Of a DNA stretch of 64,000 nt, positions 1,359 to 26,204 are shown piece by piece. The notes under the pieces were generated by a model. It was not told the DNA's origin. It was given only the letters and a program-made list of their open reading frames with translations, and did not search any database. Source of the DNA: Psychroserpens sp. (GTDB lineage: Bacteria > Bacteroidota > Bacteroidia > Flavobacteriales > Flavobacteriaceae); contig JAEPNY010000002.1 in the NCBI GenBank assembly GCA_017643165.1, positions 164,402-228,401 on the forward strand, given 5' to 3'. Numbering within the stretch: position 1 is the stretch's first letter; every line of letters starts with the position of its first letter. The position numbers and the translations under genes were made by a program.

Positions 1359-1401
1359 TAAATTTAAAGCTTCGTCCTCGTAATAAAAATGATAATTATC
1401 A
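1359..1401 (-). promoter_or_regulatory. Box-23-TAnnTTTG promoter of the 1333 USP operon
   Basis: On the minus strand the perfect palindrome TGATAATTATCA (1390-1401) is followed after exactly 23 nt by TAAATTTA (1366-1359), one mismatch from the Bacteroidota -7 consensus TAnnTTTG. The box centre falls near -41 from the expected start site, and the ATG at 1333 is about 20 nt further down. Confidence 0.8.
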
Positions 1402-1406
1402 ACTTA

Positions 1407-2237
1407 TTAATCTGGGATCACATAAAATGGAACAATAGGGTGGAACCCAATTTTTTTAATTACAGGTTCTTTTACAATACTTTCAATGAAACTGTGTTTA
1501 TAATTGACCATAGCCAACATGTTGACTTCTAACATTTCAATAAAATCATTGATTTCTTCTGTTTTTTTAGCGTAGTTAGGCATAAAATGGAAGCTATAAT
1601 CATAGTCCTCTAAATAGCTTTCTAACATGGTCATATTGTATTCCTGAACACCTGTGAGTTTGTCTTTAGATAAAATGCATACGATTCTAATTTTTGAATC
1701 GTAAAGCTCTATTAGAGATCTTAAGTATTTCAATTCACGATCGGCATAATCCCTTGTAAAATCTGTTGGAAAAGCAATTTGACTTGGGATTGCAAAGTCA
1801 AAATCGTCAGGTACAACTAAAAGCGGACATTGTTTAGTCTTCTTTATGATACGTACCGTATTGCTTCCAAAGAAAATTTCTTTTGCACCAGTAGATCCTT
1901 TAGTACCCATAACGACCAAATCAATATGATGTTTGGCAATCGCCATACTCATGGCATCTTCAAGATTATCGGCACTGAGTATAATATCAAACTCATGATT
2001 TGCATTAACATTGGTATGTTCGGCCATTTCTTTAAGCTCATTGAGATCTTTTAATGCGGCTTTAGACATATGATCTAATAATTTATTGGTCATATTTGAC
2101 ATCGTCGAGATATGCATTTTAGTGGAATGCAAGAAATAGAACCTACATTCTTCATGTGCAAATAATTTTAACGCATAGACTGCGGCACTCCAGGCATTAT
2201 CTGAAAAATCCGTTGGTAATAGAATATGTTTTTTCAT
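1407..2237 (-). CDS. Universal stress protein, tandem double UspA domain
   Basis: A 276-residue paralogue of the neighbouring stress proteins. The N-terminal UspA domain (KHILLPTDFSDNA at 2-14) has the nucleotide-binding pattern GTKGSTGAKEIFFGS, matching G-x2-G-x9-G-S. The second domain starts near SQIAFPTDFTRDY and ends in VPFYVIP without that signature, though it keeps the KHSF motif shared by the second halves of all copies. The 42-nt gap to the upstream USP gene contains no palindromic box, so this gene is probably the third cistron of the transcript starting before 3988. A weak TCTATTTG in the gap could give an internal promoter, but no operator lies at the expected distance. Confidence 0.92.
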   Translation of the reverse strand: MKKHILLPTDFSDNAWSAAVYALKLFAHEECRFYFLHSTKMHISTMSNMTNKLLDHMSKAALKDLNELKEMAEHTNVNANHEFDIILSADNLEDAMSMAIAKHHIDLVVMGTKGSTGAKEIFFGSNTVRIIKKTKQCPLLVVPDDFDFAIPSQIAFPTDFTRDYADRELKYLRSLIELYDSKIRIVCILSKDKLTGVQEYNMTMLESYLEDYDYSFHFMPNYAKKTEEINDFIEMLEVNMLAMVNYKHSFIESIVKEPVIKKIGFHPIVPFYVIPD

Positions 2238-2279
2238 GGCTTAGTTATTTTATGACAAATAGATAGTTGCTAATGCACA

Positions 2280-3122
2280 CTATATACGTGACGGAATTAC
2301 TAAAAATGGTACGTTTAGGTGGAACCCAATATGTTTAATATTCGATTTGAAAAATAGATTTTCAAAGAACGAATGTTTATTGTTGATCATTGCTAACAGG
2401 TTTATCTTATGTCGCACTTGAAATTCTGCAATAGCCTCTGGGATTTGATTATTTCTAACATCATAGAACAAATGACTTGTACCTTTTATAAGTTCTTTTA
2501 ACCTATCTTGATTTTCTTTTTGCTCAGGTGTTAGATCTACTGAAGTCGATACGTGCATTACATTGGTGCGTGCGCCAAAGAGACGTGCAATTTTTGTAAT
2601 GGTTTGTACATGTCGCTCCTCAAAATTAATAAGATAATCCGTTGGAAATAGTATTTCATGAGGCGCTTCATACGCGTATTCACTTGGTACAACTAAAACA
2701 GGGCATTTCGCCTTATTTATAACATGGATGGCATTAGAACCAAATAAAATTTCTTTTAATCCTGAGGCGCCTTGGGTACCCATAATAATCATGTCCATCA
2801 TATTGCCATCATATAACTCTCTTATTTCTTCTGTGATCGTATTAAATGACGAAAGACTCGCAATGGTATGTTTAGGATTATCATATTCTTTGGAAATTCG
2901 TGAGACTAGTTTGTCCAATCCATTTCGAGACGCTTCTCGCATCGCATCTTCAAGCCCGAATTGGGCCGTTCCTAATTCAGCCGACTCTAATTGATAGATA
3001 ATAGGCGTATAGGTGTTTAACAGTGTGAACGTGCAGTGTTCATCTTTAAATAACTGAAGTGCATAACTTATGGCGTTCCATGAGTTATCTGAAAAATCGG
3101 TGGGTAGGAGTATACGTATCAT
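2280..3122 (-). CDS. Universal stress protein, tandem double UspA domain
   Basis: A 280-residue double UspA protein. Domain one begins IRILLPTDFSDNS and has GTQGASGLKEILFGS (G-x2-G-x9-G-S) followed by CPVLVVPS, so it is predicted to bind ATP. Domain two begins near HEILFPTDYLINF, has the KHSFFENLFFKS segment in place of the glycine loop, and ends VPFLVIPSRI. Its start lies 11 nt after the stop of the next USP gene upstream, too little room for a promoter, so the two are cotranscribed from the 3989-4047 promoter region. Like its sisters it is acidic and lacks a signal peptide, so it acts in the cytoplasm. Which stress it serves cannot be read from the sequence. Confidence 0.93.
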   Translation of the reverse strand: MIRILLPTDFSDNSWNAISYALQLFKDEHCTFTLLNTYTPIIYQLESAELGTAQFGLEDAMREASRNGLDKLVSRISKEYDNPKHTIASLSSFNTITEEIRELYDGNMMDMIIMGTQGASGLKEILFGSNAIHVINKAKCPVLVVPSEYAYEAPHEILFPTDYLINFEERHVQTITKIARLFGARTNVMHVSTSVDLTPEQKENQDRLKELIKGTSHLFYDVRNNQIPEAIAEFQVRHKINLLAMINNKHSFFENLFFKSNIKHIGFHLNVPFLVIPSRI

Positions 3123-3133: not shown

Positions 3134-3988
3134 TTATGCACTGGTGCGTTTAATGTTCTGCATGGCCAAAAATGGAATGTCAAGGTGTAATGACATTTCA
3201 TCTATAGTCGATTTGAATAAGATATCTTCTAAGAAAGAATGTCTTGTATTCACCATGACCAGCATGTCTACTTCGTGTTCTTTTATATAAGTGAATATTG
3301 CATTTACTATCGATTTACTCGCGATGGTTTTAAAGTTGAGCTTGTTTTTGCATAACTCTTCTGATAAGAAACGTTTATTGTCATCTTGTCTTCTAGATAG
3401 TTTATCACTACTAGATATGTAGAGAATGTCAATAATAGCGCGATAAGGTGAAGCCATTTCACAAAGAAGCTTTAATTCTCTACGTTTGTACGGAATAAGG
3501 TAATTGGTAGGAAAAGCAATATGCTTTGGTTGCGTATAGGTATAATTTGCAGGTATAGATAACACTGGACAGCTAACATATTTAAGCACTTGTAAAGTGT
3601 TACTACCGAATGTGGCAGATCTATCATCAGTTTGACCTTTAGTTCCCATAACAACAATATCAATGTCTTTTCCTTCTGAAATGAGATCTATTTCATCAAC
3701 CAGAGCGTTATAAGATGATATTTTATGATACTGATGTCTAGGATTGGCCCATACCTTATTAACGGTTTGAAGGAGTTGATTTAAATGATCATCAGCGTGA
3801 TTTTGTCGATCCTTTATTATGGTTTCGATGTGATCTGATTTTTGGAGTTCGATCTCCCTATACACTTCATCTTGATATGTATGTAAGAAATAAATATTAC
3901 TCTTGTCATATTTGAACAACTCTAATGCAAATTTGATTGCATTCATCGCATTATCTGAAAAATCGGTAGGTATTAGAATATTTCTCAT
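3134..3988 (-). CDS. Universal stress protein, tandem double UspA domain
   Basis: A 284-residue double UspA protein, first gene of a probable operon running to 1407. Domain one starts RNILIPTDFSDNA and carries GTKGQTDDRSATFGS, fitting G-x2-G-x9-G-S. Domain two starts near KHIAFPTNYLIPY and contains RHSFLEDILFKS where an ATP loop would be expected. The ATG at 3988 is supported by a box-plus-(-7) promoter just upstream (TGATATTCATCA, then 23 nt, then TAAATTGA), giving a leader of only about 12 nt. A factor-independent terminator for the preceding unit lies at 4071-4104, so this is a fresh transcription unit. Confidence 0.93.
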   Translation of the reverse strand: MRNILIPTDFSDNAMNAIKFALELFKYDKSNIYFLHTYQDEVYREIELQKSDHIETIIKDRQNHADDHLNQLLQTVNKVWANPRHQYHKISSYNALVDEIDLISEGKDIDIVVMGTKGQTDDRSATFGSNTLQVLKYVSCPVLSIPANYTYTQPKHIAFPTNYLIPYKRRELKLLCEMASPYRAIIDILYISSSDKLSRRQDDNKRFLSEELCKNKLNFKTIASKSIVNAIFTYIKEHEVDMLVMVNTRHSFLEDILFKSTIDEMSLHLDIPFLAMQNIKRTSA

Positions 3989-4004: not shown

Positions 4005-4047
4005 TCAATTTACCAAGGAATTCAGACGAAAACAATGATGAATATCA
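4005..4047 (-). promoter_or_regulatory. Box-23-TAnnTTTG promoter of the 3988 USP operon
   Basis: Minus-strand TGATATTCATCA (4036-4047), then exactly 23 nt, then TAAATTGA (4012-4005). The -7 element is imperfect (TTGA for TTTG) but sits at the same spacing as in the other copies. It lies between the upstream terminator (4071-4104) and the ATG at 3988. Confidence 0.75.
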
Positions 4048-4155: not shown

Positions 4156-4198
4156 CAAATATAGGCATAGGTGTAATGAAAAGAAATGATATAAATCA
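4156..4198 (-). promoter_or_regulatory. Box-23-TAnnTTTG promoter of the predicted small RNA
   Basis: Minus-strand TGATTTATATCA (4187-4198), exactly 23 nt, then a perfect TATATTTG (4163-4156). No protein gene follows before the terminator at 4071-4104. It lies just past the stop codon of the 4213 gene, so it is not that gene's promoter. Confidence 0.7.
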
Positions 4199-4611: not shown

Positions 4612-5454
4612 CTATTCATGTAATACTAAAAATGGGATCTCTGTGTGATAACTAATCTTTTCAACCCGTGTATGGAATAGAATATGTTGAAAGTAGTTCA
4701 GGTTTTTTGCTACCATCACAATAATGTCAATGTCTCTACTCTCCACAAAGCATTGTATGGCATCTTCTAATTTTGAATTGGTTAAAAAGTGAAAGCTATA
4801 GTCAAATTCATCAAAGAATTCTTCAATGAGTTCCCGATTGTGTTCTTGTTCTTTATTTAATGCTGCGCTTTTTTTCGTAATGTGTAAAATGCGCAATACG
4901 GCTGATTTATGGGATAGTAGTTCAGAAATGGGTTGTAATGTTTGTATGTCATATGACATGGTAAAGTCTGTAGGAAACGCGATTTCCTGGTGCGGTTTAA
5001 ACTGTGCATTTTCAGGAACGATTAGCGTCGTACACTTAACTTTTGTGATGACATCTCCTGCGTTGCTTCCTATGATATACTCTCTTAATCCTGAAGCACC
5101 TTTTGTTCCCATTACTATGATGTCTATATGTTTTTCTCTAACATGCTTCCTTATAGATTCTATAATAAAACTATGGTCTGTAAGCGTGTAGAAACGGTGT
5201 TTTGAATTTGGTTTGACTGAATCACTTACGCGTTTTAAGAGTTGTCTCAATTTATGTTTTGCAGGTTTAATATAAACGTCTAGTATCTCGGTTTGTGTAG
5301 GAATATAAGCGGTATCACCAACAATTAGATTATCGAGGGTGTTTACGTGTAAGAGATAGAAATTACATTGTTCTTGCTTAAAATAATGTAGTGCATATAC
5401 TATGGCATTCCATGAATTATCTGAAAAATCTGTGGGAAGTAAAACATTCTTCAT
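4612..5454 (-). CDS. Universal stress protein, tandem double UspA domain
   Basis: A 280-residue double UspA protein from the ATG at 5454; a TTG two codons upstream is open but the sister genes all start right at MKxxLLPTDFS. Domain one has GTKGASGLREYIIGS (G-x2-G-x9-G-S), the ATP-binding signature. Domain two starts near QEIAFPTDFTMSY and lacks it. This copy is the most diverged: the usual PVLVVP after the loop is TTLIVP, and the second domain reads AKNLNYFQHILF where the others have KHSF. It heads a two-gene operon with the small membrane protein and has the best -7 element of the USP promoters. Confidence 0.93.
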   Translation of the reverse strand: MKNVLLPTDFSDNSWNAIVYALHYFKQEQCNFYLLHVNTLDNLIVGDTAYIPTQTEILDVYIKPAKHKLRQLLKRVSDSVKPNSKHRFYTLTDHSFIIESIRKHVREKHIDIIVMGTKGASGLREYIIGSNAGDVITKVKCTTLIVPENAQFKPHQEIAFPTDFTMSYDIQTLQPISELLSHKSAVLRILHITKKSAALNKEQEHNRELIEEFFDEFDYSFHFLTNSKLEDAIQCFVESRDIDIIVMVAKNLNYFQHILFHTRVEKISYHTEIPFLVLHE

Positions 5455-5488
5455 TATCAATCGCTTTTCATCTTAGTCTTGCATGAAA

Positions 5489-5531
5489 CAAAACTAATCT
5501 GACTCTTGATATTATAAAATGATATTAGTCA
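5489..5531 (-). promoter_or_regulatory. Box-23-TAnnTTTG promoter of the 5454 USP operon
   Basis: Minus-strand TGACTAATATCA (5520-5531; one arm is TGAC rather than TGAT), exactly 23 nt, then a perfect TAGTTTTG (5496-5489). The ATG at 5454 follows about 30 nt after the predicted start site. The region also lies just past the end of the response-regulator gene. Confidence 0.8.
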
Positions 5532-5551: not shown

Positions 5552-6604
5552 TTAATACATTTGTCGCAATTTTTCAAGATCCACAATTTTAATATTACGT
5601 CCTTCCATTTCAATAAGACCTTTCTTCTTAAAATCGGTCATTGTTCGAATGAGCGTTTCTGTAGCTATTCCTGCAACACTGGCCAAATCACTTCGTGAGA
5701 TTTTGATAGGATCCTCAGGTTTGCGATTCATCTTTTCAGCAAATTTTAAAATGGTATACGCTGTTTTCTTCTGCACTGAACTATAAGCCATTTGTAACAA
5801 CTGTTCTTTGGTTCCAACGAGATCATCAGTCAACAATTGAATAAGTTCAAGAGTTACCTTTTGATTTTGAGCTAATACAGCGCCTAATTCGGTTTTTGTA
5901 ATACCCACAAGTTCTGTGTCTTTTAATGCTGTTGAAGTCTCTTGATATGGAATATTTTGAGTGAAAGAGGTGAACCCGAAAAGGTCATCTTCTTTATGCA
6001 AAGCGGTTGTAAGTTCTTTTCCTTTCTCATCAAAAATATAGCATTTCACAACGCCTTTGAGTATGAGATAAATATAACTGGAACTTTGACCTTCAGTGTA
6101 GATAACGTCATTTTTATTAAAACTGAAAAGATCGCCATTGTCATCAAAATAGTTCTTGAGATCATTGAGTGTTTTCAGATTGTTGTCGGTTTGAATATCT
6201 AAATTCTCAGGTTCTTCTCGCTCATCTTTTAAAATTGAAGCTTTTGCAAGTCTACTTTTAATAGCGCTAATCAATTCATCTTCTGTAAACGGTTTAGTGA
6301 TGTAATCATCTGCTCCTAGATTCATTCCTTTTCTTACATCCTGTCGTTCGGTTTTAGCAGATAAGAAAATGAATGGGATATACTTAGTAGAATGTTTTTC
6401 GGTAAGTTCTTCTAATACTGAATAGCCATCCATTCTTGGCATCATAATATCGCATACAATGATGTCTGGACTTTCAGAATTGGCAACCTTTAACCCCTCA
6501 AGACCATTGTTAGCAGTAAGTACTTCAAAATTGGAAAGTTCAAGAAGTTCTGCTGTATTCTCGCGTAAGACTTGATCGTCTTCTATTAATAATACTTTAT
6601 TCAT
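5552..6604 (-). CDS. Response regulator fused to Crp/Fnr-type DNA-binding module
   Basis: A 350-residue cytosolic regulator. Residues 1-120 form a receiver with acidic pair E8/D9-D10, phosphoacceptor D52 (IIVCDIMMPRMDG), S82 and K104. Residues about 140-255 form a cyclic-nucleotide-binding beta roll (IYTEGQSSSYIYLILKG), and 256-350 the long helix plus Crp-type winged helix. The recognition helix reads ATETLIR: E316 and R320 occupy the positions of the Glu and Arg that read the TGA half-site in Crp and Fnr, and Ile319 replaces the Fnr serine. There is no cysteine cluster, so this is not an Fe-S oxygen sensor. It overlaps the kinase gene by 4 nt (ATGA), a clear cognate pair. It is the best candidate to bind the TGAT-N4-ATCA boxes around it. 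Confidence 0.93.
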   Translation of the reverse strand: MNKVLLIEDDQVLRENTAELLELSNFEVLTANNGLEGLKVANSESPDIIVCDIMMPRMDGYSVLEELTEKHSTKYIPFIFLSAKTERQDVRKGMNLGADDYITKPFTEDELISAIKSRLAKASILKDEREEPENLDIQTDNNLKTLNDLKNYFDDNGDLFSFNKNDVIYTEGQSSSYIYLILKGVVKCYIFDEKGKELTTALHKEDDLFGFTSFTQNIPYQETSTALKDTELVGITKTELGAVLAQNQKVTLELIQLLTDDLVGTKEQLLQMAYSSVQKKTAYTILKFAEKMNRKPEDPIKISRSDLASVAGIATETLIRTMTDFKKKGLIEMEGRNIKIVDLEKLRQMY

Positions 6605-8481
6605 GACGTTGCTGCATTAGGTAATTCAATCGTAAATACTGAACCTTCACCTTCTTCACTAGTGAAGTATATCTTACCATCCAAATTTTCAATATGCTCT
6701 TTAACTATGTTGAGACCGATTCCTGTGCCTTGTGAAAGCAACACGTTTTCAGCCCTAAAATAGCGTTGGAATATGTTCTTCTGGTCTTTCTTAGGAATAC
6801 CAATTCCATTATCGCCCACTACGAAAATGGTTTTATTATTCTTTTGTTTAATGTCAATATCAATTACAGTATCTTCTGACGAATACTTGATGGCATTATT
6901 GACGAGATTGGTGAGTGCTAATTCTAAAATCTTTTCATCTTGATACATGGACAGTTCGTCTACATCGTCTGGATAATTTATGTGTTGTCCATCCTTTAAT
7001 ACCATATTGGCGTTATAGATAACCTCATTAATAACTTTGCTAATTTTAAAGGTTGAAAACTTGTATTCGACTTTGCCCTTCTCTAACTTCTCTAAGGAGA
7101 GAAAGTCATTAATAATATTATTGAGGTAATTAACCTTATCTGAGATGGTTTTAATGTGTTTATCGCGTTTAGCCTGTTGCGATTCTAACGCATACTTGCT
7201 TAATAAAATGGCTGAGGTTTGAATCGCACTTAAAGGAGTTTTGAACTCATGAGATACCAAGGATAAAAACTTTGTTTTGAGATCATTTAGTTCACGCTCC
7301 GATTTTAATGCGACTTGAAGTTCTTCGGTGCGCTCAGCAACAGTTTTTTCTAATTTTTTGGTGTAATTCTTTTGATCTGATATATCCAAGACGATGGCTA
7401 TATAAATATCTTTATCGCCTAATTTTGTGCGTTGTAAATGAACATTTACAGGATAGGTAGTGCCATCTTTTCGTTTATGTAGCGTTTCAAACTCCAATTT
7501 ATGCACTTTATCTTTCGTTAGGATATCAATTTGTTCTCTAAATTCCTTCTCGTTGTATTCTGGTTTAATATCCACTGGTGTCATCGTTTGCAACTCTGAA
7601 AGCTGGAAACCAATATTTTTTTGAGCTCCATAATTAACATTTATAAAGCGTAGTGTTTCAGCATCGAAGACATAGATTTCATTCAGTGATTCATGGAAGA
7701 TATTAGCAAAATGGTTGCGTTCGGCCTCTGCATGTTTTCGTTTTGTAACATCATTCTGAATGCCTATAAAATGGGTGAGGATTCCATTTTTATTGATTAT
7801 TGGCATGATGTATAGGTCGTTCCAAAAAAGCGATCCATCTTTTTTATAATTACGAAGTGTAACTTGACAGCTTTCTCCTTTTTTAATAGCCTTACGAAGT
7901 GTGACTAAGCCTTCCTGATCACGATCTTTACCTTGTAAGAAGCGACAGTTATGATTGAGTATTTCTTTACTTGAATACCCAGTTAGTCTTTGAAATGCTG
8001 GGTTAAAGTAAATTATTGGGTTGTCTTTTACTAAGGCATCGGTGATAATGATGCCGTTATTAGCCGATTGAAGCGCACTGCTTTTAAGCATAAGATCTTT
8101 TTCAGTTTGCTTCAGTTCAGAGACATCTTTTACCAGCGCCATAATATATTGACGATGATATACCGTAAATGGATTGAGTTCTACTTCAATCTCTTTAATG
8201 TCGCCCAATTTGGTTAAGCCATAAATATCATGAGATTCACCCATGGTTCGACGTTTGCCTTTTTTTAAAAAAGTATCGAAATGTTTTTTGTGTGAATTAT
8301 GATAATTTGATGGAATAAGAATATCTAGTTTTTTATTAACGATCTCTTCCTTAGAATACCCAAAAATGTACTCTGCTGCGGAGTTAATTTCGACAATATT
8401 TTGTTGATTATCCACAATCACAACACCCTCGGAAATAGAAGCTAAAAGGATGTTGAATATTTCTTGATCTTGTGGAAACAT
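6601..8481 (-). CDS. PAS-LOV-PAS sensor histidine kinase
   Basis: A 626-residue soluble hybrid-sensor kinase with no membrane helix. Residues about 5-125 are a PAS domain, 134-250 a LOV domain, 257-372 a third PAS, 373-400 a coiled coil, then HisKA with H411 (SHEFKTPLSA) and a HATPase with N, G1 (GDNGIGIP) and G2 (GTGIGL) boxes. The LOV assignment rests on DNPIIYFNPAF, NCRFLQG with C179, NYKKDGSLFWN and FIGIQNDVT, which cover the FMN-binding residues and the photoactive cysteine of phototropin-type LOV domains. It should therefore sense blue light. The first PAS has the IPSNYHNSH stretch that lines up loosely with the haem-ligand region of FixL, so oxygen sensing is conceivable. Upstream there is TAACTTTA (8509-8502) but no palindromic box. 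Confidence 0.95.
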   Translation of the reverse strand: MFPQDQEIFNILLASISEGVVIVDNQQNIVEINSAAEYIFGYSKEEIVNKKLDILIPSNYHNSHKKHFDTFLKKGKRRTMGESHDIYGLTKLGDIKEIEVELNPFTVYHRQYIMALVKDVSELKQTEKDLMLKSSALQSANNGIIITDALVKDNPIIYFNPAFQRLTGYSSKEILNHNCRFLQGKDRDQEGLVTLRKAIKKGESCQVTLRNYKKDGSLFWNDLYIMPIINKNGILTHFIGIQNDVTKRKHAEAERNHFANIFHESLNEIYVFDAETLRFINVNYGAQKNIGFQLSELQTMTPVDIKPEYNEKEFREQIDILTKDKVHKLEFETLHKRKDGTTYPVNVHLQRTKLGDKDIYIAIVLDISDQKNYTKKLEKTVAERTEELQVALKSERELNDLKTKFLSLVSHEFKTPLSAIQTSAILLSKYALESQQAKRDKHIKTISDKVNYLNNIINDFLSLEKLEKGKVEYKFSTFKISKVINEVIYNANMVLKDGQHINYPDDVDELSMYQDEKILELALTNLVNNAIKYSSEDTVIDIDIKQKNNKTIFVVGDNGIGIPKKDQKNIFQRYFRAENVLLSQGTGIGLNIVKEHIENLDGKIYFTSEEGEGSVFTIELPNAATS

Positions 8482-8598: not shown

Positions 8599-8641
8599 TG
8601 ATGAAAATCATTTTAGAAACCGCGGTATCCATCTATATTTG
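8599..8641 (+). promoter_or_regulatory. Box-23-TAnnTTTG promoter of the 8668-12303 operon
   Basis: TGATGAAAATCA (8599-8610), exactly 23 nt, then a perfect TATATTTG (8634-8641); the ATG at 8668 follows about 22 nt after the predicted start site. On the other strand no -7 element occurs at this spacing, so the divergent kinase gene does not seem to use the box. Confidence 0.85.
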
Positions 8642-8667: not shown

Positions 8668-9279
8668 ATGAAAACGATTAGAACTTTTATTTTTTGTGTT
8701 TTCTTCATTCCAATTCTTGGAATCGCTCAACCCATTGAGAATTTAGAATTTATATCGCCATTTAAGGATGGCGTTGCTGCTGTAAAAAGCAATGATACGT
8801 GGGGTTTTATAAATGAAAAAGGTCAGTTGATTATTGACTTTCGTAGGGATTTAGTGGCTACAACTTTTGAAGATGGTCAATATCCAGCGTTTATGAATGA
8901 GCGTTGTTTAATAGAAATGAATAAAGAAGGCATTTCCTATTACGGATATATTAATAAATCAGGTGAGGTGATCGTTGAACCTCAGTATTTGAATGCTACA
9001 AATTATGATAATGGGCTTGCTATAGTTCTTGAGTTAATAAAAGTTAAGGTTGGTGAGAATACAGCACTTGGTAAAACAATAGCTTATGACAAGTATCTTG
9101 AAGCCATCATAAATGTTGACGGTAACATCGTTCAATATGTGTCACCTAAGCGGGTGAATGTGATTTTGGATAAAGATTATTTAAAAGGACCTCCAAAGAT
9201 TAAATCTAAGCGCATTTCTGATTATTTATATGCGTATTTGAATGAAGATCGAACATGGACCGTAGTTGCAATTCAATAA
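8668..9279 (+). CDS. WG-repeat secreted protein
   Basis: A 203-residue protein with a signal peptide (about 1-20, FFIPILGIAQP) and WG/KWGFI-type repeats: NDTWGFINEKGQLIIDF near residue 48 and YYGYINKSGEVIVEPQY near 95, with a further degenerate unit after. WG repeats form beta structures of unknown role in many Bacteroidota periplasmic proteins. It is the first gene of a four-gene operon with an adaptor, a permease and an ATPase, 3 nt before the adaptor, so it may be a periplasmic partner or cargo-binding factor of that exporter. That link is inferred from position only. Confidence 0.85.
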   Translation: MKTIRTFIFCVFFIPILGIAQPIENLEFISPFKDGVAAVKSNDTWGFINEKGQLIIDFRRDLVATTFEDGQYPAFMNERCLIEMNKEGISYYGYINKSGEVIVEPQYLNATNYDNGLAIVLELIKVKVGENTALGKTIAYDKYLEAIINVDGNIVQYVSPKRVNVILDKDYLKGPPKIKSKRISDYLYAYLNEDRTWTVVAIQ

Positions 9280-9282
9280 ATT

Positions 9283-10365
9283 ATGATGAAGTTATTTCGT
9301 TACAGTTTACTTTGCTGTTTATTTTGGACTTGTAATTCTAATCAAGACCGAATTCTGCCAACAGAACAAACACTGGTTGAGTCCGTTTATGCCTCAGTCA
9401 CCATTCAACCAGATAGTTTATATCAGGTGTACTCTGTTGTGTCTGGTATTTTAGATTTGAACAAAGTTGAAGAAGGAGATTTGGTAGTGAAAGACCAAGC
9501 CTTAATGGAGATTATAAATACTACACCTAAACTCAATAGTAGTAACGCGAAGCTGGCCTTACAATTAGCAGAACAAAATTACAATGGGTCATCGGCTATT
9601 CTTAAGAGCCTACAAGATGAGATCCTTGCAGCTGAACTCAGGTTTCAAAATGATTCAATTAATTTTTTCCGTCAAAAGAAACTATGGACGCAAAACATTG
9701 GTTCAAAAGGAGAGTATGACACTAAAGAATTAAACTTCCAATTGTCTCAAAATAATCTTCAGTTACTTAATAATAGGTATAATCAAACTGAAAATGAACT
9801 CAAAACAGCTTTAGATCAAGCCAGAAATAATTACGAATCTACGCTTGTAAATACTAAAGATTTTACAATCACAAGTAAGATTAAGGGTAAGGTGTATGCT
9901 TTAAATAAAGAGCCTGGAGAAATCGTTAACTCGGTTGAACCTTTAGCAGTTTTAGGCAGTGAAACACATTTTATCATTGAAATGCTAGTTGATGAGGTCG
10001 ATATTGTGAAATTGCAAGAAGATCAGGAAGTTGTTATAACCCTTGATGCTTATGCATCGCAATTATTTAAAGGTATGATTAGTAAGATTTATCCAAAAAA
10101 AGATGAACGAAATCAGACCTTTAGAGTAGAGGCTGAATTTCTAAATCCACCATCAGTACTTTACCCAGGATTATCTGGAGAGGCAAATATTATTGTTGGC
10201 GAAAAATCAAATGTCCTAACGATTCCGAAAGATTATGTTATCGATGGAAGCAAAGTGCAGACAGATGATGGGATCTTAGACATATCTATAGGCCTGCAAA
10301 ATATGGAATACGTAGAAATCCTATCAGGACTGACGGCAGAAACTTATCTTTATAAACCAGAATAA
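9283..10365 (+). CDS. HlyD/MacA-type periplasmic adaptor lipoprotein
   Basis: A 360-residue membrane-fusion protein. The N-terminus looks like a lipoprotein signal with Cys near residue 17 (LFWTCNSNQ). A lipoyl-like half (about 50-70, VVSGILDLNKVEEGDLV) precedes a long coiled-coil hairpin (about 80-190), and the second lipoyl half and beta-barrel domain follow (KIKGKVYALNKEPGEIV). Adaptors of this type bridge an inner-membrane ABC exporter to an outer-membrane channel. The gene ends on the first base of the permease start codon (TAATGG), so translation is likely coupled. No TolC-like gene is nearby, so the channel must be encoded elsewhere. The substrate is unknown. Confidence 0.9.
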   Translation: MMKLFRYSLLCCLFWTCNSNQDRILPTEQTLVESVYASVTIQPDSLYQVYSVVSGILDLNKVEEGDLVVKDQALMEIINTTPKLNSSNAKLALQLAEQNYNGSSAILKSLQDEILAAELRFQNDSINFFRQKKLWTQNIGSKGEYDTKELNFQLSQNNLQLLNNRYNQTENELKTALDQARNNYESTLVNTKDFTITSKIKGKVYALNKEPGEIVNSVEPLAVLGSETHFIIEMLVDEVDIVKLQEDQEVVITLDAYASQLFKGMISKIYPKKDERNQTFRVEAEFLNPPSVLYPGLSGEANIIVGEKSNVLTIPKDYVIDGSKVQTDDGILDISIGLQNMEYVEILSGLTAETYLYKPE

Positions 10366-12315: not shown

Positions 12316-12471
12316 TTAAAGTTTTACTGCGCCAATCTTAATGATCATTCCAACGATTAAGAAGATAACTCCCAAAGGCCAAATTCCACTATCTGGATAC
12401 AACAATAATCCACCAAATAGCCAAATGATGCCCAGCGTTAAAAAGATTACAGAAATACTATTCTTTTTCAT
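12316..12471 (-). CDS. Small two-helix membrane protein (51 residues)
   Basis: A 51-codon ORF starting ATG at 12471 and ending TAA at 12316-12318, reading MKKNSISVIFLTLG... and ending KIGAVKL. Two hydrophobic helices (about 5-26 and 31-46) are separated by a YPDSGIWP turn, like short two-helix Bacteroidota membrane proteins of unknown function. A -7 element TAGTTTTA lies exactly 23 nt from the box at 12525-12536, which also serves the divergent 12593 gene, giving independent support that this is a real gene. It converges with the ABC ATPase gene, with 12 nt between stops. Confidence 0.75.
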   Translation of the reverse strand: MKKNSISVIFLTLGIIWLFGGLLLYPDSGIWPLGVIFLIVGMIIKIGAVKL

Positions 12472-12493: not shown

Positions 12494-12536
12494 TAAAACT
12501 AATAAATCTTCCGCAGGTTTAAGCTGATCAAAATCA
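12494..12536 (-). promoter_or_regulatory. Minus-strand promoter from the shared box at 12525-12536
   Basis: Reading left, the box TGATTTTGATCA (12536-12525) is followed after exactly 23 nt by TAGTTTTA (12501-12494), one mismatch from TAnnTTTG, then about 18 nt to the ATG of the 51-residue membrane protein. Confidence 0.65.
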
Positions 12537-12567
12537 TTTCTAATTACTTTATTTCCAATTATTTTTA
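12525..12567 (+). promoter_or_regulatory. Plus-strand promoter from the shared box at 12525-12536
   Basis: TGATCAAAATCA (12525-12536), exactly 23 nt, then TATTTTTA (12560-12567), one mismatch from TAnnTTTG. The ATG at 12593 follows about 20 nt after the predicted start site. Confidence 0.75.
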
Positions 12568-14814: not shown

Positions 14815-14857
14815 TGATTTATATCATAGTACAATTTTTTCTATTTAGTTAACTTGA
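14815..14857 (+). promoter_or_regulatory. Box-23-TAnnTTTG promoter of the 14883-17037 operon
   Basis: TGATTTATATCA (14815-14826), exactly 23 nt, then TAACTTGA (14850-14857), the same imperfect TTGA form as before 3988. The ATG at 14883 lies about 21 nt after the predicted start site. The box begins only 9 nt after the preceding stop codon. Confidence 0.75.
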
Positions 14858-17071: not shown

Positions 17072-17114
17072 TGATCAATATCATTGTGTTACATTTTTGT
17101 TATCAGTTACTTTG
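17072..17114 (+). promoter_or_regulatory. Box-23-TAnnTTTG promoter of the ytfI-gerW unit
   Basis: TGATCAATATCA (17072-17083), exactly 23 nt, then TTACTTTG (17107-17114), one mismatch from TAnnTTTG. The predicted start site near 17119 lies downstream of the TTG at 17097, so translation must begin at the ATG at 17130. Confidence 0.78.
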
Positions 17115-17129
17115 CTGAAAACGAACGCA

Positions 17130-17636
17130 ATGATTCTCTATGTTTTTTTGATCCTATTGTTGTTGTTGATCTTCTACTTGTTAGTTGTTCCGCTAATACT
17201 GCATGTAGATACATCAACTAATCAATATTATATTCAAATTGGAGGTATTTTTAAAGCAAATTTCTTATATGATGAGGCTGAACTAATAAAGCTAAAATTT
17301 AAAATACTTGGGTTTAATTATGAAGTCTTTCCACTACGTAAGAAGCCGAAATCAAAACCGAAGAATCGTATTAAAGAAAATACTGATAATGCGAAAAAGA
17401 ATGCGCTTCCTTTCAAAAAGATATTAAGAGTGATAAGATCGTTTGAAGTAAAACAATTTCTAATTGATATAGATACGGGTGATTGTATTACAAATTCAAA
17501 ACTTTATCCTGTTTTTTCAGGGTCTAATTTTTATTTGGGCAGTCAGATGTTCATTAATTATCAAGGGAGAAATAGATTCGTGTTGACCATTCAAAATAGG
17601 CCAATACGTCTACTAAAAGCATATATGAACATTTAA
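17130..17636 (+). CDS. YtfI-like DUF2953-type membrane-anchored protein
   Basis: A 168-residue protein from the ATG at 17130; an upstream TTG in frame lies in the promoter and is rejected. An N-terminal membrane helix (about 2-24, YVFLILLLLLIFYLLVVPLI) leads to HVDTSTNQYYIQIGGIFKANF, then a basic linker (LRKKPKSKPKNRIK) and a C-terminal part ending NRPIRLLKAYMNI. The IQIGGIFKA and C-terminal VLTIQNRPIRLLKA patterns resemble the DUF2953 protein YtfI, whose gene is the neighbour of ytfJ/gerW in Bacillus. Here too a GerW-family gene follows 10 nt downstream, which strengthens the otherwise weak similarity. Confidence 0.7.
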   Translation: MILYVFLILLLLLIFYLLVVPLILHVDTSTNQYYIQIGGIFKANFLYDEAELIKLKFKILGFNYEVFPLRKKPKSKPKNRIKENTDNAKKNALPFKKILRVIRSFEVKQFLIDIDTGDCITNSKLYPVFSGSNFYLGSQMFINYQGRNRFVLTIQNRPIRLLKAYMNI

Positions 17637-18099: not shown

Positions 18100-18142
18100 T
18101 GATATAAATCATTTTAGACACTTTTTAACCTAAGTATATTTA
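18100..18142 (+). promoter_or_regulatory. Box-23-TAnnTTTG promoter of the 22-residue microprotein
   Basis: TGATATAAATCA (18100-18111), exactly 23 nt, then TATATTTA (18135-18142), one mismatch from TAnnTTTG. It lies after a terminator and before the convergent end of mlaD, so its only possible product is the short ORF at 18167. Confidence 0.75.
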
Positions 18143-18248: not shown

Positions 18249-19238
18249 TCAATTATTCTTGCGTTCTTCGCGCTTTGCCTGTCGTTCTAATTTTTTAAAA
18301 TACCCTCTAAATAAGAAGTTGTGTTTTAAAGCCTCCATGTTTTCATTGAACTTGGCGGTGCCTTCGTTGATATTGTCTAACGTTGATCGAAGACTATTCA
18401 CTAGAGCTGTGTCTTTAACAATATAATTGTATGCACCTTCACTTGTTTTGATATCATTCATAATGCCGTTGACGTTATCTAGAACAGTTTCGATTTCGCG
18501 ACTAGAGCTTTCTAGATTAGACACCACGAGTTTAAGTTTTTCTCCAGATAGTGTGTCATTCAATATCATGCCTAATACGGTCTCATCATTCGTTTTTAAT
18601 GACGAAATAATAGCATTTAATTCATTGATCGTATTGGTGGCGCCCTGACTCGCGAGCTTCAAATTTCTTACAGAACGCTTGAGGTCCTGTGCCATAATTG
18701 TATCATTTAAAAGTAGACCAACGGTGCCTTCACCTTCTAACATTGCTGATGTGATTTTAAGTAGGTCTGCCGTTAGTATGGCTGCGTTTTCAGAGCCAAC
18801 ACTTAAGGTGCTTAAGATATCATCAGCACCAATCTTACTATAAGATTCGATAACGTCACCATTATTAATTAATTCAGAAGGCCCTTTTCCTGGAACGATA
18901 TTCACAATCATATTTCCTACGAGACCATCAGATCCTATAGTAGCAATTGCATTTTTCTTAATGTGTGTAATTATTTTCTCCTGAATATTCATATCGACCT
19001 GAATCGTAGAATCATTTATCATGATTATATCTTTCACAGTGCCTATATCAATACCTGAATAACGCACATTATTGCCGCGTTGTAAACCGTTTACATTTTG
19101 AAAATAGGAGCTTATTGTAAAGGTCTTATTAAACATGTTTTGACGCTGACCTATTAGGTAAACAGCAACAACAAATATGATGGTACCTAAGGTTACAAAA
19201 AGTCCTAATCTAATTTTTTGTTTGTTTGTCCGTTTCAT
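18249..19238 (-). CDS. mlaD: MlaD-family (MCE domain) lipid-transport substrate-binding protein
   Basis: A 329-residue periplasmic protein anchored by one N-terminal helix (about 10-30, LGLFVTLGTIIFVVAVYLIG) with an MCE domain at about 38-118 (FQNVNGLQRGNNVRYSGIDIGTVKDI) and a long helical C-terminal half (about 150-329) with repeated NL/N-I heptads and a highly basic tail (KKLERQAKREERKN). In Mla systems the MCE protein forms a hexameric ring that passes phospholipids between membranes. The helical tail may form the tube or a periplasmic stalk. The gene is 2 nt after mlaF and last in the mlaE-F-D operon. Confidence 0.92.
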   Translation of the reverse strand: MKRTNKQKIRLGLFVTLGTIIFVVAVYLIGQRQNMFNKTFTISSYFQNVNGLQRGNNVRYSGIDIGTVKDIIMINDSTIQVDMNIQEKIITHIKKNAIATIGSDGLVGNMIVNIVPGKGPSELINNGDVIESYSKIGADDILSTLSVGSENAAILTADLLKITSAMLEGEGTVGLLLNDTIMAQDLKRSVRNLKLASQGATNTINELNAIISSLKTNDETVLGMILNDTLSGEKLKLVVSNLESSSREIETVLDNVNGIMNDIKTSEGAYNYIVKDTALVNSLRSTLDNINEGTAKFNENMEALKHNFLFRGYFKKLERQAKREERKNN

Positions 19239-19240
19239 AA

Positions 19241-20002
19241 TTAATGTTTAAAAAATGCTTTAACTTTTGGGTCATCCATTTTGGCGAGCTCATTAAAAGT
19301 TCCCATCGCGTAGTCGATTCCATCAATGAGTAAAATCATTCGATCAGAAATAACTCTAGCACAATCTACATCATGTGTAATAATTAGTGATGAGGTACCA
19401 TATTTTCTCTGAATATCTTGCATTAAGAGAATGATCTCTTTAGCTGTAATTGGATCTAAACCACTCGTTGGTTCATCATATAGAATGATCTTAGGTTTCA
19501 TGATCAATGTTCGCGCTAAGGCGATCCTTCGTTTCATTCCACCAGAGAGTTCAGAAGGCATTAAGTCTATGGCACTTACGAGTCCTACGTTCTCCAGAGC
19601 CTCAATAACTAAAGCTTCGGCATCAATGTGTTCACCAAATTTTTTCGTGTGTCTTCGCAATGGAAATTCCAAATTTTCACGTACGGTCATGGAGTCATAG
19701 AGTGCACTTCCTTGAAATAAGAATCCGATATCTGCGCGAAGGATATCAAGCGCTTCCTGATCAAGTTTAGTGATATCATTCTTCATAACCCTAATATATC
19801 CGCTATCTGATTCCAATAGTCCAACGAGACATTTGATCATAACCGATTTTCCTGATCCAGATTTTCCCATGATCACTAAACTTTCCCCTTGATATAATTC
19901 CATGTTGAAACCATTAAGTACATCATTATCACCAAAACTCTTCCTCAAATCTTTAATTTGAAGTACGATATCTCGATTCGCTATTTGAGTTTTAGTTGTC
20001 AT
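19241..20002 (-). CDS. mlaF: MlaF-type ABC transporter ATPase
   Basis: A 253-residue ATPase. Walker A is GKSGSGKS near residue 46, the Q-loop FLFQGSALYDSMTVRENLEFPL is the Mla type, the signature is LSGGMKRRIALAR (the M instead of Q/E is characteristic of MlaF) and Walker B is IILYDEPTSGLDP. It powers lipid movement through MlaE. It overlaps mlaE by 4 nt (ATGA). The C-terminal GTFNELAKMDDPKVKAFF resembles the tail by which MlaF binds MlaB-type partners, though no STAS protein gene is here. Confidence 0.95.
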   Translation of the reverse strand: MTTKTQIANRDIVLQIKDLRKSFGDNDVLNGFNMELYQGESLVIMGKSGSGKSVMIKCLVGLLESDSGYIRVMKNDITKLDQEALDILRADIGFLFQGSALYDSMTVRENLEFPLRRHTKKFGEHIDAEALVIEALENVGLVSAIDLMPSELSGGMKRRIALARTLIMKPKIILYDEPTSGLDPITAKEIILLMQDIQRKYGTSSLIITHDVDCARVISDRMILLIDGIDYAMGTFNELAKMDDPKVKAFFKH

Positions 20003-20781
20003 AGGTCATAAAATATATCGGTTACAAAAACAGCAATAAAGTCGATGATAAAAAGCAATAATGATGAAAGTACAACAGCCGTATTGGCGGCTTTACCAAC
20101 ACCTTCTGTTCCTTTCTTACAATTATAGCCCTTATAGCATCCAACAATGCCTATGGCTAATCCAAAGAAAAACGACTTGATGGTGGCTGGAAGGATATCT
20201 CCAAATTCTAAGGCATCAAAAACCTTATTAAAATACAGAAGGAATGAGACATTGCCTTTAAGGTTTTCTACCAAATATGATCCAAAAAGTGCGATGGCAT
20301 CTCCAAATAATACGAGAAGAGGAAGCATTAAGGTTACGGCGAGTACCCTTGTAGCTACGAGGTATTTAAACGGATTTGTGCCAGAAACTTCCATCGCATC
20401 AATCTGTTCTGTCACGCGCATTGAGCCTAGCTCTGCACCGATTCCTGATCCAATTCGACCTGCACAGACCAGAGCTGTGATAATAGGACCTATTTCGCGA
20501 ACAATGGAGATACTTACCATTGAAGGCATCCAAGAGACTGCACCAAATTCCATTAAGGTGGGTCGTGTTTGTAGTGTTAAGACCAGTCCAATAATGAACC
20601 CAGTAATGCCTACTAATAATAAAGAGCGGTTGCCCATTTGATAACACTGTCGCAAAAACTCTTTGGTTTCAAATGGTCGTTTGAAAACTTCAATAAAGAA
20701 TCGTTTAGTAAAATAGGAGATTTCACCTACTTCAATGAAGAAGTTAATTAATTGGGATTTTATTTGCCTTAATCCAATCAT
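19999..20781 (-). CDS. mlaE: MlaE-family ABC transporter permease
   Basis: A 260-residue inner-membrane permease with an amphipathic N-terminal helix (GEISYFTKRFFIEVFKRPFE) and about five membrane helices. The family motif REIGPIITALVCAGRIGSGIGAELGSMRVTEQIDAMEV spans about residues 100-137 and is intact. It is the first gene of the mlaE-F-D operon and has the regulon promoter TGATAATTGTCA-23-TACATTTG. There are no mlaB or mlaC genes, which is common in Bacteroidota. Direction of lipid transport cannot be told. Confidence 0.94.
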   Translation of the reverse strand: MIGLRQIKSQLINFFIEVGEISYFTKRFFIEVFKRPFETKEFLRQCYQMGNRSLLLVGITGFIIGLVLTLQTRPTLMEFGAVSWMPSMVSISIVREIGPIITALVCAGRIGSGIGAELGSMRVTEQIDAMEVSGTNPFKYLVATRVLAVTLMLPLLVLFGDAIALFGSYLVENLKGNVSFLLYFNKVFDALEFGDILPATIKSFFFGLAIGIVGCYKGYNCKKGTEGVGKAANTAVVLSSLLLFIIDFIAVFVTDIFYDL

Positions 20782-20800: not shown

Positions 20801-20843
20801 CAAATGTAGACTATAATCGAGGTTTATAAAATGACAATTATCA
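20801..20843 (-). promoter_or_regulatory. Box-23-TAnnTTTG promoter of the mlaEFD operon
   Basis: Minus-strand TGATAATTGTCA (20832-20843), exactly 23 nt, then a perfect TACATTTG (20808-20801), then about 15 nt to the ATG at 20781. A second box for the divergent gene lies 30 nt further up at 20874. Confidence 0.85.
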
Positions 20844-20873: not shown

Positions 20874-20916
20874 TGATATTTATCATTGTGTTCCTATATA
20901 GAATTTATGACATTTA
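20874..20916 (+). promoter_or_regulatory. Box-23 promoter of the 20941 coiled-coil gene
   Basis: TGATATTTATCA (20874-20885), exactly 23 nt, then GACATTTA (20909-20916). The box is good and the spacing fits, but the -7 element is the poorest of the set (two mismatches to TAnnTTTG). The ATG at 20941 follows about 20 nt later. Confidence 0.65.
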
Positions 20917-20940: not shown

Positions 20941-21546
20941 ATGAAAACGAAAGACGATACGCACTTTGTAGATAAGGTTATTGGAGCATTACGAAAAACA
21001 GCTATAGAACTCGAGGAGTTCCAAGTGCAAGCCGCTTTAGGCAAAGCTGAAGCAAAAGACAAATATGAGGAAGTTAAAAAACGATTTAATCTCTTTATTC
21101 ACGATAGTGAATTTAAGGTAAAAGGGATTAAAGAAAAGATTGAAGAGGTTAATGCAATGTTTGATAAACTAAGAGTACAATTAGCATTAGGTAAAGCAGA
21201 AACTAAAGAGATCTTTAAAAAACAAAAGAAGCAGATCTTGGCAACGATACACGAGATCGAAGTTAAAATACGAACTAATGATACTTTAAATCGCATGTAT
21301 GCCTTAGCACTTATCGAAATTGAACAATTCAAAATTCAACTTGAGATTTTAGAGCAGCGATTTAATGAGGAAAAGGGCAAGGCGAAAGATACATTTGAAA
21401 AAGGAAAAGCGGATTTCAATTCATTTATCGAAAACTTCAAAGGTAAATACGGAAAGAAAAAAGAAGTGACAAAGTTTGAACATTTTCAGCATGAAATTTC
21501 AGAAGCCTTTGATCATTTTAAGAGGGCATTTACAAAACCTGAATAA
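20941..21546 (+). CDS. Coiled-coil protein with internal repeats
   Basis: A 201-residue charged, almost fully helical soluble protein with no signal peptide. Two copies of a 24-residue unit stand out, QVQAALGKAEAKDKYEEVKK (about 28-50) and RVQLALGKAETKEIFKKQKK (about 79-101), and a third degenerate one at IQLEILEQRFNEEKGKAKDT. The Q-LALGKAE-KD pattern is reminiscent of small helical stress proteins of the CsbD/late-embryogenesis type, but I would not assign a family. It is a single-gene unit, ends at a bidirectional terminator and shares its upstream region with mlaEFD. Confidence 0.8.
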   Translation: MKTKDDTHFVDKVIGALRKTAIELEEFQVQAALGKAEAKDKYEEVKKRFNLFIHDSEFKVKGIKEKIEEVNAMFDKLRVQLALGKAETKEIFKKQKKQILATIHEIEVKIRTNDTLNRMYALALIEIEQFKIQLEILEQRFNEEKGKAKDTFEKGKADFNSFIENFKGKYGKKKEVTKFEHFQHEISEAFDHFKRAFTKPE

Positions 21547-23684: not shown

Positions 23685-23727
23685 TAAATGTATCACTAAA
23701 CGCTAAAGTTTAAAATGATTTAAATCA
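23685..23727 (-). promoter_or_regulatory. Minus-strand promoter from the shared box at 23716-23727
   Basis: Reading left, the perfect palindrome TGATTTAAATCA (23727-23716) is followed after exactly 23 nt by TACATTTA (23692-23685), one mismatch from TAnnTTTG, then about 20 nt to the ATG at 23660. Confidence 0.8.
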
Positions 23728-23758
23728 TTTATAATGAATTATTAAAGTCTTACTTTTA
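23716..23758 (+). promoter_or_regulatory. Plus-strand promoter from the shared box at 23716-23727
   Basis: Reading right, the same palindrome TGATTTAAATCA is followed after exactly 23 nt by TACTTTTA (23751-23758), one mismatch from TAnnTTTG, then about 24 nt to the ATG at 23787. Confidence 0.8.
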
Positions 23759-25136: not shown

Positions 25137-25138
25137 AC

Positions 25139-26134
25139 TCAGAACACCGTTAATTCATTCTCGGTTTCTAGACCTTTCATCCATTGGTCTAAATTCCAAA
25201 TGGTCGTTTCGGCAATATTTGTTAAGGCTTCTTCAGTCAAGAAGGCGTGGTGTCCTGTAATTAATACATTAGGGTACGCATTTAATTGCATGAGTAGGTC
25301 GTCGTCTGGTATCTCATTAGATCGATCTTTAAAGAATATCCCGCGCTCATTTTCAAATACATCAGCGCCATAAGCACCAATACGTTTCGATTTAAGTGCC
25401 TCTAACAAATGTTCAGTATTGACAACTGCGCCTCGAGCCGTATTGATAATTATAACATCCTTTTTCATCAGAAATAGCAGGTCTTCATTGATCAAGTAAT
25501 GTGTTTCAGAATTGAGAGGTACATTGAGGGAGATAATATCCGACTGCTCACATAAGGTCTTTAAGTTCGTATATCTGAGACCATAGGTCTCGACAAGTTT
25601 CTGATCTTCGGAAATATCAAATCCAAGAAGCTTGCAGCCAAAACCGTGCATAATCTTCACCATTACAGAGCCAATGTTACCAGTTCCAATAATACCAACT
25701 TTTTTTTGGTTAAGATCAATGCCTACTAAGTTGTCGAGATTAAAATTATAATGTTTAAAACGACGATTAGAGTCGATCAGATGTCTGTTTAATGCCAGTA
25801 ATAGACTTACACCATGTTCAGCAATGGCATAAGGTGAATATGCCGGAACATTGGCCACTCTAATGCCTAAACGCTCTGCTGCTTTGAGATTGACATTATC
25901 AAAGCCCACTGAACGTAATGTAATATATTTAACTCCGAATTCTTTTAGGAGTTCCAGATTTAGGAAGTTTGCATCATCTGCTGAAAATAATGAGATCGCG
26001 TCATAACCAATTGCCTGCATGGCGGTTTCTGAGGAAAGCGCATCTTCAATAAAGGTAAGTTGATGTTTGTTTAAATTGGCCTTTTCTAAATATGGAATTT
26101 CAAACGCTTTAGCGCTATATACTAGGACTTTCAT
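25139..26134 (-). CDS. ldhA: D-lactate dehydrogenase (LdhA-type 2-hydroxyacid dehydrogenase)
   Basis: A 331-residue NAD-dependent dehydrogenase. The nucleotide-binding motif is GIIGTGNIGSVMVKIMHGFG (about 147-166), with catalytic Arg in NTARGAVVN, Glu in DVFENERG and His in ITGHHAFLTEEALTNIA. The last block, and the RSVGFDNV at about 74, follow the fermentative D-lactate dehydrogenase LdhA of enterobacteria closely, so pyruvate to D-lactate with NADH reoxidation is the likely reaction. Its promoter is the rightmost box of the series, which fits induction when respiration is limited. It converges with the L,D-transpeptidase gene, with 2 nt between stops. Confidence 0.9.
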   Translation of the reverse strand: MKVLVYSAKAFEIPYLEKANLNKHQLTFIEDALSSETAMQAIGYDAISLFSADDANFLNLELLKEFGVKYITLRSVGFDNVNLKAAERLGIRVANVPAYSPYAIAEHGVSLLLALNRHLIDSNRRFKHYNFNLDNLVGIDLNQKKVGIIGTGNIGSVMVKIMHGFGCKLLGFDISEDQKLVETYGLRYTNLKTLCEQSDIISLNVPLNSETHYLINEDLLFLMKKDVIIINTARGAVVNTEHLLEALKSKRIGAYGADVFENERGIFFKDRSNEIPDDDLLMQLNAYPNVLITGHHAFLTEEALTNIAETTIWNLDQWMKGLETENELTVF

Positions 26135-26161
26135 AATCGAGTTTGTAATGATTATACGCGA

Positions 26162-26204
26162 TAAAACTATTAAGAAAGCATAGTATATGAAATGATATTG
26201 CTCA
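26162..26204 (-). promoter_or_regulatory. Box-23-TAnnTTTG promoter of ldhA
   Basis: Minus-strand TGAGCAATATCA (26193-26204; the left arm is TGAG), exactly 23 nt, then TAGTTTTA (26169-26162), one mismatch from TAnnTTTG, then about 23 nt to the ATG at 26134. It lies downstream of the tRNA terminator, so ldhA is separately transcribed. Confidence 0.7.

Follow-up and report, generated by a model that had tools for sequence, protein, structure and literature searches.

A conserved TGAT-N4-ATCA promoter series, its likely receiver-Crp/Fnr regulator and a PAS-LOV partner kinase in a Psychroserpens genome and related Flavobacteriaceae

The DNA considered here is a 64,000-nucleotide (nt) stretch, referred to below as the window, from a Psychroserpens sp. 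genome (GenBank GCA_017643165.1, contig JAEPNY010000002.1; our G000:C2:164402-228401) of 3.14 Mb and 99.9% completeness. Its left part holds a series of TGAT-N4-ATCA boxes ahead of genes for universal stress proteins (Usp), an exporter, an Mla lipid transporter, an L,D-transpeptidase and a 2-hydroxyacid dehydrogenase, among others, together with overlapping genes for a histidine kinase and a response regulator in which a receiver is joined to a Crp/Fnr-type body (Table 1). Comparison of the regulator protein puts an uncultured Psychroserpens sp. nearest among named records (77%), with others such as Flavobacteriales bacterium ALC-1, Algibacter, Lacinutrix, Mangrovimonas, Winogradskyella, Polaribacter and Gelidibacter.

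An initial annotation had listed 13 boxes, each 23 nt from a TAnnTTTG-like element, and the list holds as given, with 10 perfect boxes and three (5520, 20832, 26193) having one changed base. The -7 consensus of Bacteroides is TANNTTTGY (PMC12632263). With the element scored against the six fixed bases of TAnnTTTG, and distance taken as nt from the box end to the first T, 15 promoter directions from the 13 boxes have such an element at 23 nt when at least 4/6 matches are required (1390-, 4036-, 4187-, 5520-, 8599+, 12525+, 12525-, 14815+, 17072+, 18100+, 20832-, 20874+, 23716+, 23716- and 26193-). None scores better at any other distance in the 8-44 nt scanned, with ties in five (4036, 14815, 17072, 20874, 23716+); the fixed distance first described stands. 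Three of the -7 elements are weak (4036, 14815 and 20874, 4/6 each), and there are two counter-examples to the spacing: a coding box at 54074 shows a -7-like element at 23 nt, and box 5520, read in reverse, has one at 24 nt. Boxes 4036 and 4187 are in tandem ahead of one Usp gene.

Box counts alone are modest evidence; it is the fixed distance that carries weight. Perfect boxes number 13 in the window, against a mean of 3.1 and a largest value of 9 in 100 shuffles, the random expectation thus being nearer three than the two per 64 kb first estimated. With at most one change allowed, 86 boxes are seen where 58.8 would be expected, and the case for the three altered boxes of the series therefore lies in their spacing rather than their rarity. 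The three perfect boxes outside the cluster (40817, 54074, 58162) all lie within long open reading frames (ORFs). A regulon beginning at 1359 had also been proposed; the cluster in fact continues past the left edge of the window, where box and spacing match at G000:C2:164326-164366 before an Hsp20 gene. Box-bearing genes in the DNA to the left (L032:19438-19887 and neighbours) include, besides Hsp20, one more Usp gene and a transporter-like gene. Over the whole genome there are 19 exact box-N23-TAnnTT matches, 11 of them in the cluster; allowing one mismatch raises the number to 123, against 45 for the reversed pattern, so many of the relaxed matches are due to chance.

Table 1. Coordinates of boxes, genes and domains in the window. 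Box entries give the box, the spacer and the -7 element; -7 match is out of the six fixed bases, and the orthologue column gives orthologues of the downstream gene that keep box and spacing.
Feature	Positions	Strand	-7 match	Orthologues	Downstream gene or remark
Box TGATAATTATCA, 23 nt, TAAATTTA	1359..1401	-		5/6	before Usp 479-1333
Box TGATATTCATCA, 23 nt, TAAATTGA	4005..4047	-	4/6	9/10	proximal of two, Usp 3134-3988
Box TGATTTATATCA, 23 nt, TATATTTG	4156..4198	-	6/6		distal tandem site, Usp 3134-3988
Box TGACTAATATCA (one change), 23 nt, TAGTTTTG	5489..5531	-	6/6	12/12	before Usp 4612-5460
Box TGATGAAAATCA, 23 nt, TATATTTG	8599..8641	+	6/6	7/7	before WG-repeat, HlyD/MacB/ABC exporter genes 8668-12303
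Box TGATCAAAATCA, 23 nt, TATTTTTA	12525..12567	+		2/2	before ArsC/Spx-like 12593-12958 and genes behind
12525 box reversed, 23 nt, TAGTTTTA	12494..12536	-			before 51-codon ORF
Box TGATTTATATCA, 23 nt, TAACTTGA	14815..14857	+	4/6	4/4	before 14883-17037
Box TGATCAATATCA, 23 nt, TTACTTTG	17072..17114	+			before hypothetical and YtfJ-like genes
Box TGATATAAATCA, 23 nt, TATATTTA	18100..18142	+			before 22-codon ORF
Box TGATAATTGTCA (one change), 23 nt, TACATTTG	20801..20843	-	6/6	7/7	before Mla operon 18249-20781
Box TGATATTTATCA, 23 nt, GACATTTA	20874..20916	+	4/6	4/4	before 20941-21546
Box TGATTTAAATCA, 23 nt, TACATTTA	23685..23727	-		4/4	before phasin-like/ABC1 kinase genes
23716 box reversed, TACTTTTA	23716..23758	+		4/4	before CBS / L,D-transpeptidase genes
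Box TGAGCAATATCA (one change), 23 nt, TAGTTTTA	26162..26204	-		6/6	before 2-hydroxyacid dehydrogenase 25139-26134
Response regulator: receiver, cNMP-fold, Crp-type helix-turn-helix; proposed activator	5552..6604	-			Pfam, alignment
Histidine kinase PAS-LOV-PAS-HisKA-HATPase	6601..8481	-			overlaps and lies upstream of regulator gene; Pfam and PDB-sequence matches
Kinase residues 1-130: PAS most like haem PAS of DosP/FixL	8092..8481	-			
Kinase residues 134-250: LOV with NCRFLQ, NYKKDG-FWN, FIGIQNDVT	7732..8082	-			
Small ORF, 51 codons, hydrophobic	12316..12471	-			below ORF-list size limit
Small ORF, 22 codons, one hydrophobic segment	18167..18235	+			

Box and spacing recur in relatives. Perfect intergenic boxes were scanned in both directions at distances of 5-59 nt, a hit being 5 or 6 of the 6 fixed bases, in a first set of 18 stretches (15 relatives supply 17, and the remaining one is the window's own, with 11 boxes, 10 of them inside the window) and a second of 48 loci from named records, one of which, L126, duplicates G008 in the first set; stretches L033-L041, L124 and L125 lie outside the analyses. 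At 23 nt there are hits for 96 of 250 box-directions in the first set and 119 of 286 in the second, against 0-8 and 0-9, respectively, at every other distance. In the named loci the perfect box occurs between genes 143 times and the reversed pattern once, and the box flanks are mostly (A/C)TGAT...ATCAT, not TTGAT...ATCAA. Orthologues in 12 same-genus islands keep box and 23 nt in 78/83 cases for 15 box-led genes (in the window or just left of it), as against 12/127 for 19 cluster genes without a box at 23 nt, among which usp_1407, with no box in the window, was counted; ten alternative spacings give 0-9 of the 83. The ORF begins a median of 24 nt beyond the -7 element (quartiles 18-30; 416 promoters).

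The regulator has the sequence features of a two-component response regulator with a Crp/Fnr-type output. Its receiver matches PF00072 at 1.9e-30, with D9, D52 and K104 invariant, and D10 and S82 nearly so, among 16 aligned regulators; the remainder matches PF00027, PF13545 and PF00325 and, in the PDB, Crp, FNR and FixK2. Within the recognition helix, ATETLIR, residues E316, I319 and R320 are invariant in the same 16 proteins. E. coli CRP holds cAMP through E72 and R82. On alignment to 3h3u, a Crp/Fnr-family chain, the cAMP-holding Glu and Arg are replaced by Phe and Tyr in the regulator, and all 16 proteins carry Phe, Tyr, Asn or Gln in place of the Glu, which makes cAMP an unlikely ligand; control by cAMP was set aside accordingly. 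By inspection, the 16-regulator alignment has no Fnr-type N-terminal cysteine cluster for [4Fe-4S], the N terminus being the receiver.

Site numbers follow the presence of this gene. A full-length orthologue is found in 12 of 22 other same-genus genomes. Exact box-23-TAnnTTT sites total 149 in the 13 genomes with the regulator (6-16 each, the window's included) and 28 in the 10 that lack it (0-5 each; p = 3e-5), whereas a control spacing of 20 nt gives 18 and 13 (p = 0.37). No more than 60 kb separates the regulator gene from 81 of the 149, where at most 4.9 would be expected; gene order around it varies among genomes, with many of the same genes remaining nearby. Usp genes number 8-12 with the regulator (9 of the 13 regulator genomes) and 1-7 without (p = 1e-4). 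The 5552-6604 fusion is the likely regulator of the regulon.

The first PAS domain of the partner kinase has 14 PDB-sequence matches at E <=0.001, of which 13 are DosP (best 7.5e-13), haem PAS sensor, yddU or FixL and the fourteenth is a multi-sensor kinase. His64 aligns with position 77 of the DosP chain, the haem ligand (proximal His), and a His is present there in 56/56 related kinases possessing this domain. For the second PAS the best PDB match is a "Sensory box protein" (6.6e-38), with a blue-light photoreceptor at 5e-32 and phototropin at 2.2e-30; the LOV motifs in full are NCRFLQ (adduct Cys), NYKKDGSLFWN and FIGIQNDVT (flavin-contact Asn/Gln). Low oxygen and light, both suggested as signals by the initial annotation, would fit such a protein. 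Related kinases were chosen by regular expressions (58 from 57/66 stretches; 57 once L126 is removed) and labelled LOV by presence of the NC-F motif, rows without it being gapped over the domain in the kinase alignment; every aligned kinase not gapped there has the motif with its adduct Cys. More distant receiver-Crp proteins (40-43% identity) stand beside LOV-motif kinases of 676-1098 aa in G022:C78, G023:C13 and G033:C16.

LOV is present in 24/57 related kinases and absent from 33/57, layouts including PAS-kinase, PAS-PAS-kinase, PAS-LOV-PAS-kinase and longer forms, one with a GAF domain by Pfam. Its state changes on at least five well-supported branches of the regulator tree and at least three of the kinase-core tree (L126 is left out of both). 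The kinase-core tree puts G013 in another clade than the regulator tree does, so some of these changes may be whole-gene replacements; domain insertion alone as the route of LOV gain and loss is weakened by this conflict. In FixL and DosP a distal Arg stabilises bound oxygen. That Arg is kept by 23/33 kinases without LOV and 8/23 with it (Fisher p 0.014); a sign test on independent pairs, five on the regulator tree and three on the kinase tree, does not reach 0.05, and the link between LOV and loss of the Arg is a hint. A bolder proposal, which we consider less likely than not, is that a natural oxygen and blue-light kinase drives a dormancy regulon via one receiver-Fnr fusion, with the light module gained or lost repeatedly and LOV lineages tending to lose the oxygen-stabilising Arg, so that the low-oxygen programme would be rewired to light.

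Taken together, these features probably represent a two-component system that has stayed beside its own regulon in Flavobacteriaceae, in a neighbourhood that rearranges; a clustered regulon with class II-type Crp/Fnr sites and the 5552-6604 regulator, as the initial annotation had it, is still the best-supported reading. At the level of sequence its three parts are boxes, conserved at the heads of predicted transcription units, 23 nt before a putative Bacteroidota -7 element; a receiver-Crp/Fnr fusion whose presence goes with site number; and a partner kinase whose DosP/FixL-like PAS is accompanied by a canonical LOV domain in some lineages.

Several observations weigh against this reading. 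In the window, no box that faces the kinase-regulator operon has its -7 element at 23 nt. In 6 of the 48 named loci (Polaribacter, Gelidibacter, Maribacter) the regulator is present with no perfect intergenic box within 10 kb. G018, which has no full-length regulator match and was treated as regulator-less in the genome comparisons, carries two sites on the same contig as a Usp cluster; it may be an incomplete assembly. Eight of the exact genome matches lie away from the cluster (placed with L001, L002 and L014-L019), five preceding an ORF and three within ORFs, so that the claim of local clustering stands for 11 of the 19 matches and fails for the rest; the five could be remote regulon members or targets of a stand-alone Fnr-like protein. 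The kinase itself has His, not Arg, at the FixL/DosP distal-Arg position, making oxygen sensing the weakest step. As separate observations, L135-L137, L149, L150, L152 and L159, from the three genera just named, keep the regulator with at most one perfect intergenic box within 10 kb, and the five distant pre-ORF matches (L001, L002, L015, L016, L019) are each around position 1500.

The stand-alone Fnr-like protein, encoded elsewhere in the same genome (G000:C3, L123:7664-8359) beside an 802-aa P-type-ATPase-like ORF (assigned by reading motifs), also counts against the fusion as sole regulator. It differs in having N-terminal cysteines and no receiver, and its recognition helix, ATESAIR, is so nearly identical to ATETLIR, with E-x-x-I-R shared, that it might bind the same boxes. 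Regulator-less genomes, moreover, have 28 sites at 23 nt and 13 at 20 nt, about a twofold excess; the few 23-nt sites there probably serve a protein of this kind, and with the likeness of the helices they suggest that the 23-nt architecture is general for this protein class in the group. Both points would suit a classic Fnr regulon, in which all the boxes are targets of the stand-alone protein and the receiver-Crp protein is another target or acts elsewhere. We consider this quite improbable: site numbers track the receiver-Crp gene without overlap (6-16 versus 0-5) and cluster around it, whereas, among the matches listed, Crp-type proteins of similar size occur in genomes with the regulator (G004, G007, G008, G012) and without (G001, G005, G010, G016). 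The flanks also differ, TT following the box in 136/201 island sites (named-record loci not being included) as against 4/28 in regulator-less genomes, although these sets were not chosen in the same way and some of the 28 may be there by chance. Sharing of the boxes, with the two-component protein acting early and Fnr near anoxia, like the FixK and FnrN that share anaeroboxes in Rhizobium leguminosarum (PMC7888657), is a serious alternative if still an unlikely one; common recognition residues and promoter architecture speak for it, while the same difference in flanks hints at separate preferences.

Another possibility is that the signal is neither light nor oxygen, LOV serving in a redox or structural role and haem being absent from the first PAS. 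Lack of the distal Arg in the window kinase would be compatible with this, as would the absence of LOV from 33/57 related kinases with boxes preceding many of the same families; we regard it as unlikely in view of the adduct Cys in every kinase not gapped over the domain and the ligand-position His in 56/56. That the whole series is a chance run in AT-rich intergenic DNA has next to no probability in our view, for all that the genome is AT-rich, one-change boxes are common and the coding box at 54074 shows the spacing too: the spacing peaks in both sets of relatives, control spacings and reversed patterns are low, and the orthologue footprints of box-led and non-box-led genes contradict it, so the initial judgement that the series is no accident can be kept.

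Boxes with at most one change in 65 stretches (again without L126) give 455 predicted promoters, 416 with a long ORF behind, of which 157 are Usp-type. Other box-led families are Hsp20, WG-repeat, MlaE, PNP-oxidase-like and DnaJ-like (11) proteins, the kinase itself (13), a flavin oxidoreductase and, judged by motif, a thioredoxin-like protein; ribonucleotide reductase accounts for 4 promoters, spread over 3 stretches. A family of 129-155 aa, G007 (p142), whose representative has no Pfam match, is box-led in 32/65 stretches. Promoter counts in 23 LOV and 33 non-LOV stretches are alike for the main families (Usp 71/73, Hsp20 13/9, WG 9/10) and differ for ArsC-like (4/0), the 14883 family (6/0) and hyp147 (0/6); family names here express likeness to the window's genes, stretch lengths differ and the counts ignore kinship, so the comparison supports no conclusion, and a different output for LOV systems was not retained. 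No photolyase is among the identified box-led families, most small families lacking identification.

Within the window, the genes at 14883-17037 include PNP-oxidase-like, DUF7670 and acetyltransferase genes. The 17072 box is kept before the same family in 7 stretches and scores 0/3 in the orthologue count, which used the listed start of 17097; the listed TTG start of ORF 17097-17636 falls within the promoter, and the true start is probably ATG 17130. Boxes 12525 (reversed) and 18100 had seemed to lead nowhere, and both turn out to precede small conserved ORFs that had not been listed. The 51-codon ORF has 70-80% identity (tblastn) in 4 other genomes, with box (at most one change) and 23 nt in 5/5 including the window; the 22-codon ORF is matched in 5 other genomes at 50-68% identity (tblastn E 3e-5 to 0.004), with box and spacing under the same rule upstream in 5/6, the window again counted. 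Other box-led short hydrophobic ORFs are of 49 codons in G002 and 37 in L136.

In the proposed two-component mechanism, the kinase would sense low oxygen via its first PAS and blue light via LOV, and would phosphorylate Asp52 of the regulator, which would then dimerise and bind a box centred near -41, a position derived from the 23-nt distance to the -7 element. From there it may contact RNA polymerase in the manner of a class II activator, so that no -33 element would be needed. The output would be a stasis and low-oxygen programme of Usp, Hsp20, Mla lipid transport, L,D-transpeptidase and 2-hydroxyacid dehydrogenase, to which relatives would add a DnaJ-like chaperone and, in three stretches, ribonucleotide reductase.

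The mycobacterial DosS/DosT-DosR system likewise exerts two-component control over Usp, Hsp20 and other stasis genes, a control that in the present case is predicted; DosR has a LuxR-type DNA-binding domain, and the window regulator a Crp-type one instead. Six Usp genes of the DosR regulon are named in PMC2914252. The rhizobial FixL-FixJ-FixK and hFixL-FxkR-FixK/FnrN systems share an oxygen-sensing kinase (oxygen sensing being putative here), a two-component relay and an Fnr-type site: in R. leguminosarum FixK binds TTGAT-N4-ATCAA and FnrN uses the same sites (PMC7888657), and a small heat-shock protein is reported to be microaerobically induced (PMC11784457). They differ from the system described here in their box flanks, in that the receiver protein turns on a separate fixK, whereas receiver and Fnr-type binder are fused here, and in that the window kinase carries LOV. 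The economical reading, by analogy, would be that two proteins here do the work of a FixL-FixJ-FixK-like circuit and that their light input can be exchanged. LOV and a haem-binding PAS have been combined on one kinase in the engineered YHF, which answers blue light and oxygen jointly (PMC6798134); the window kinase, with the order PAS-LOV-PAS-kinase, would be a natural counterpart of the engineered YF1/YHF. Each part has known counterparts; no account of their combination, of the promoter code or of a light domain exchanged in this way was found in the searchable literature. An exact-phrase search on receiver-Crp regulator names found no paper, nor is there one on the system among the literature matches listed, most subscription journals being outside coverage; the accessible parts of PMC4844311, PMC8510549, PMC12040651 and PMC8694187 do not describe it.

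The analysis provides a precise, testable code for a class of activator-dependent promoters in Bacteroidota and names a receiver-Crp regulator, and the 57 natural kinases, with and without LOV, beside orthologous regulators allow sensor rewiring to be traced. If light and oxygen do both feed into the system, day-night light would be linked to stasis in common marine heterotrophs.

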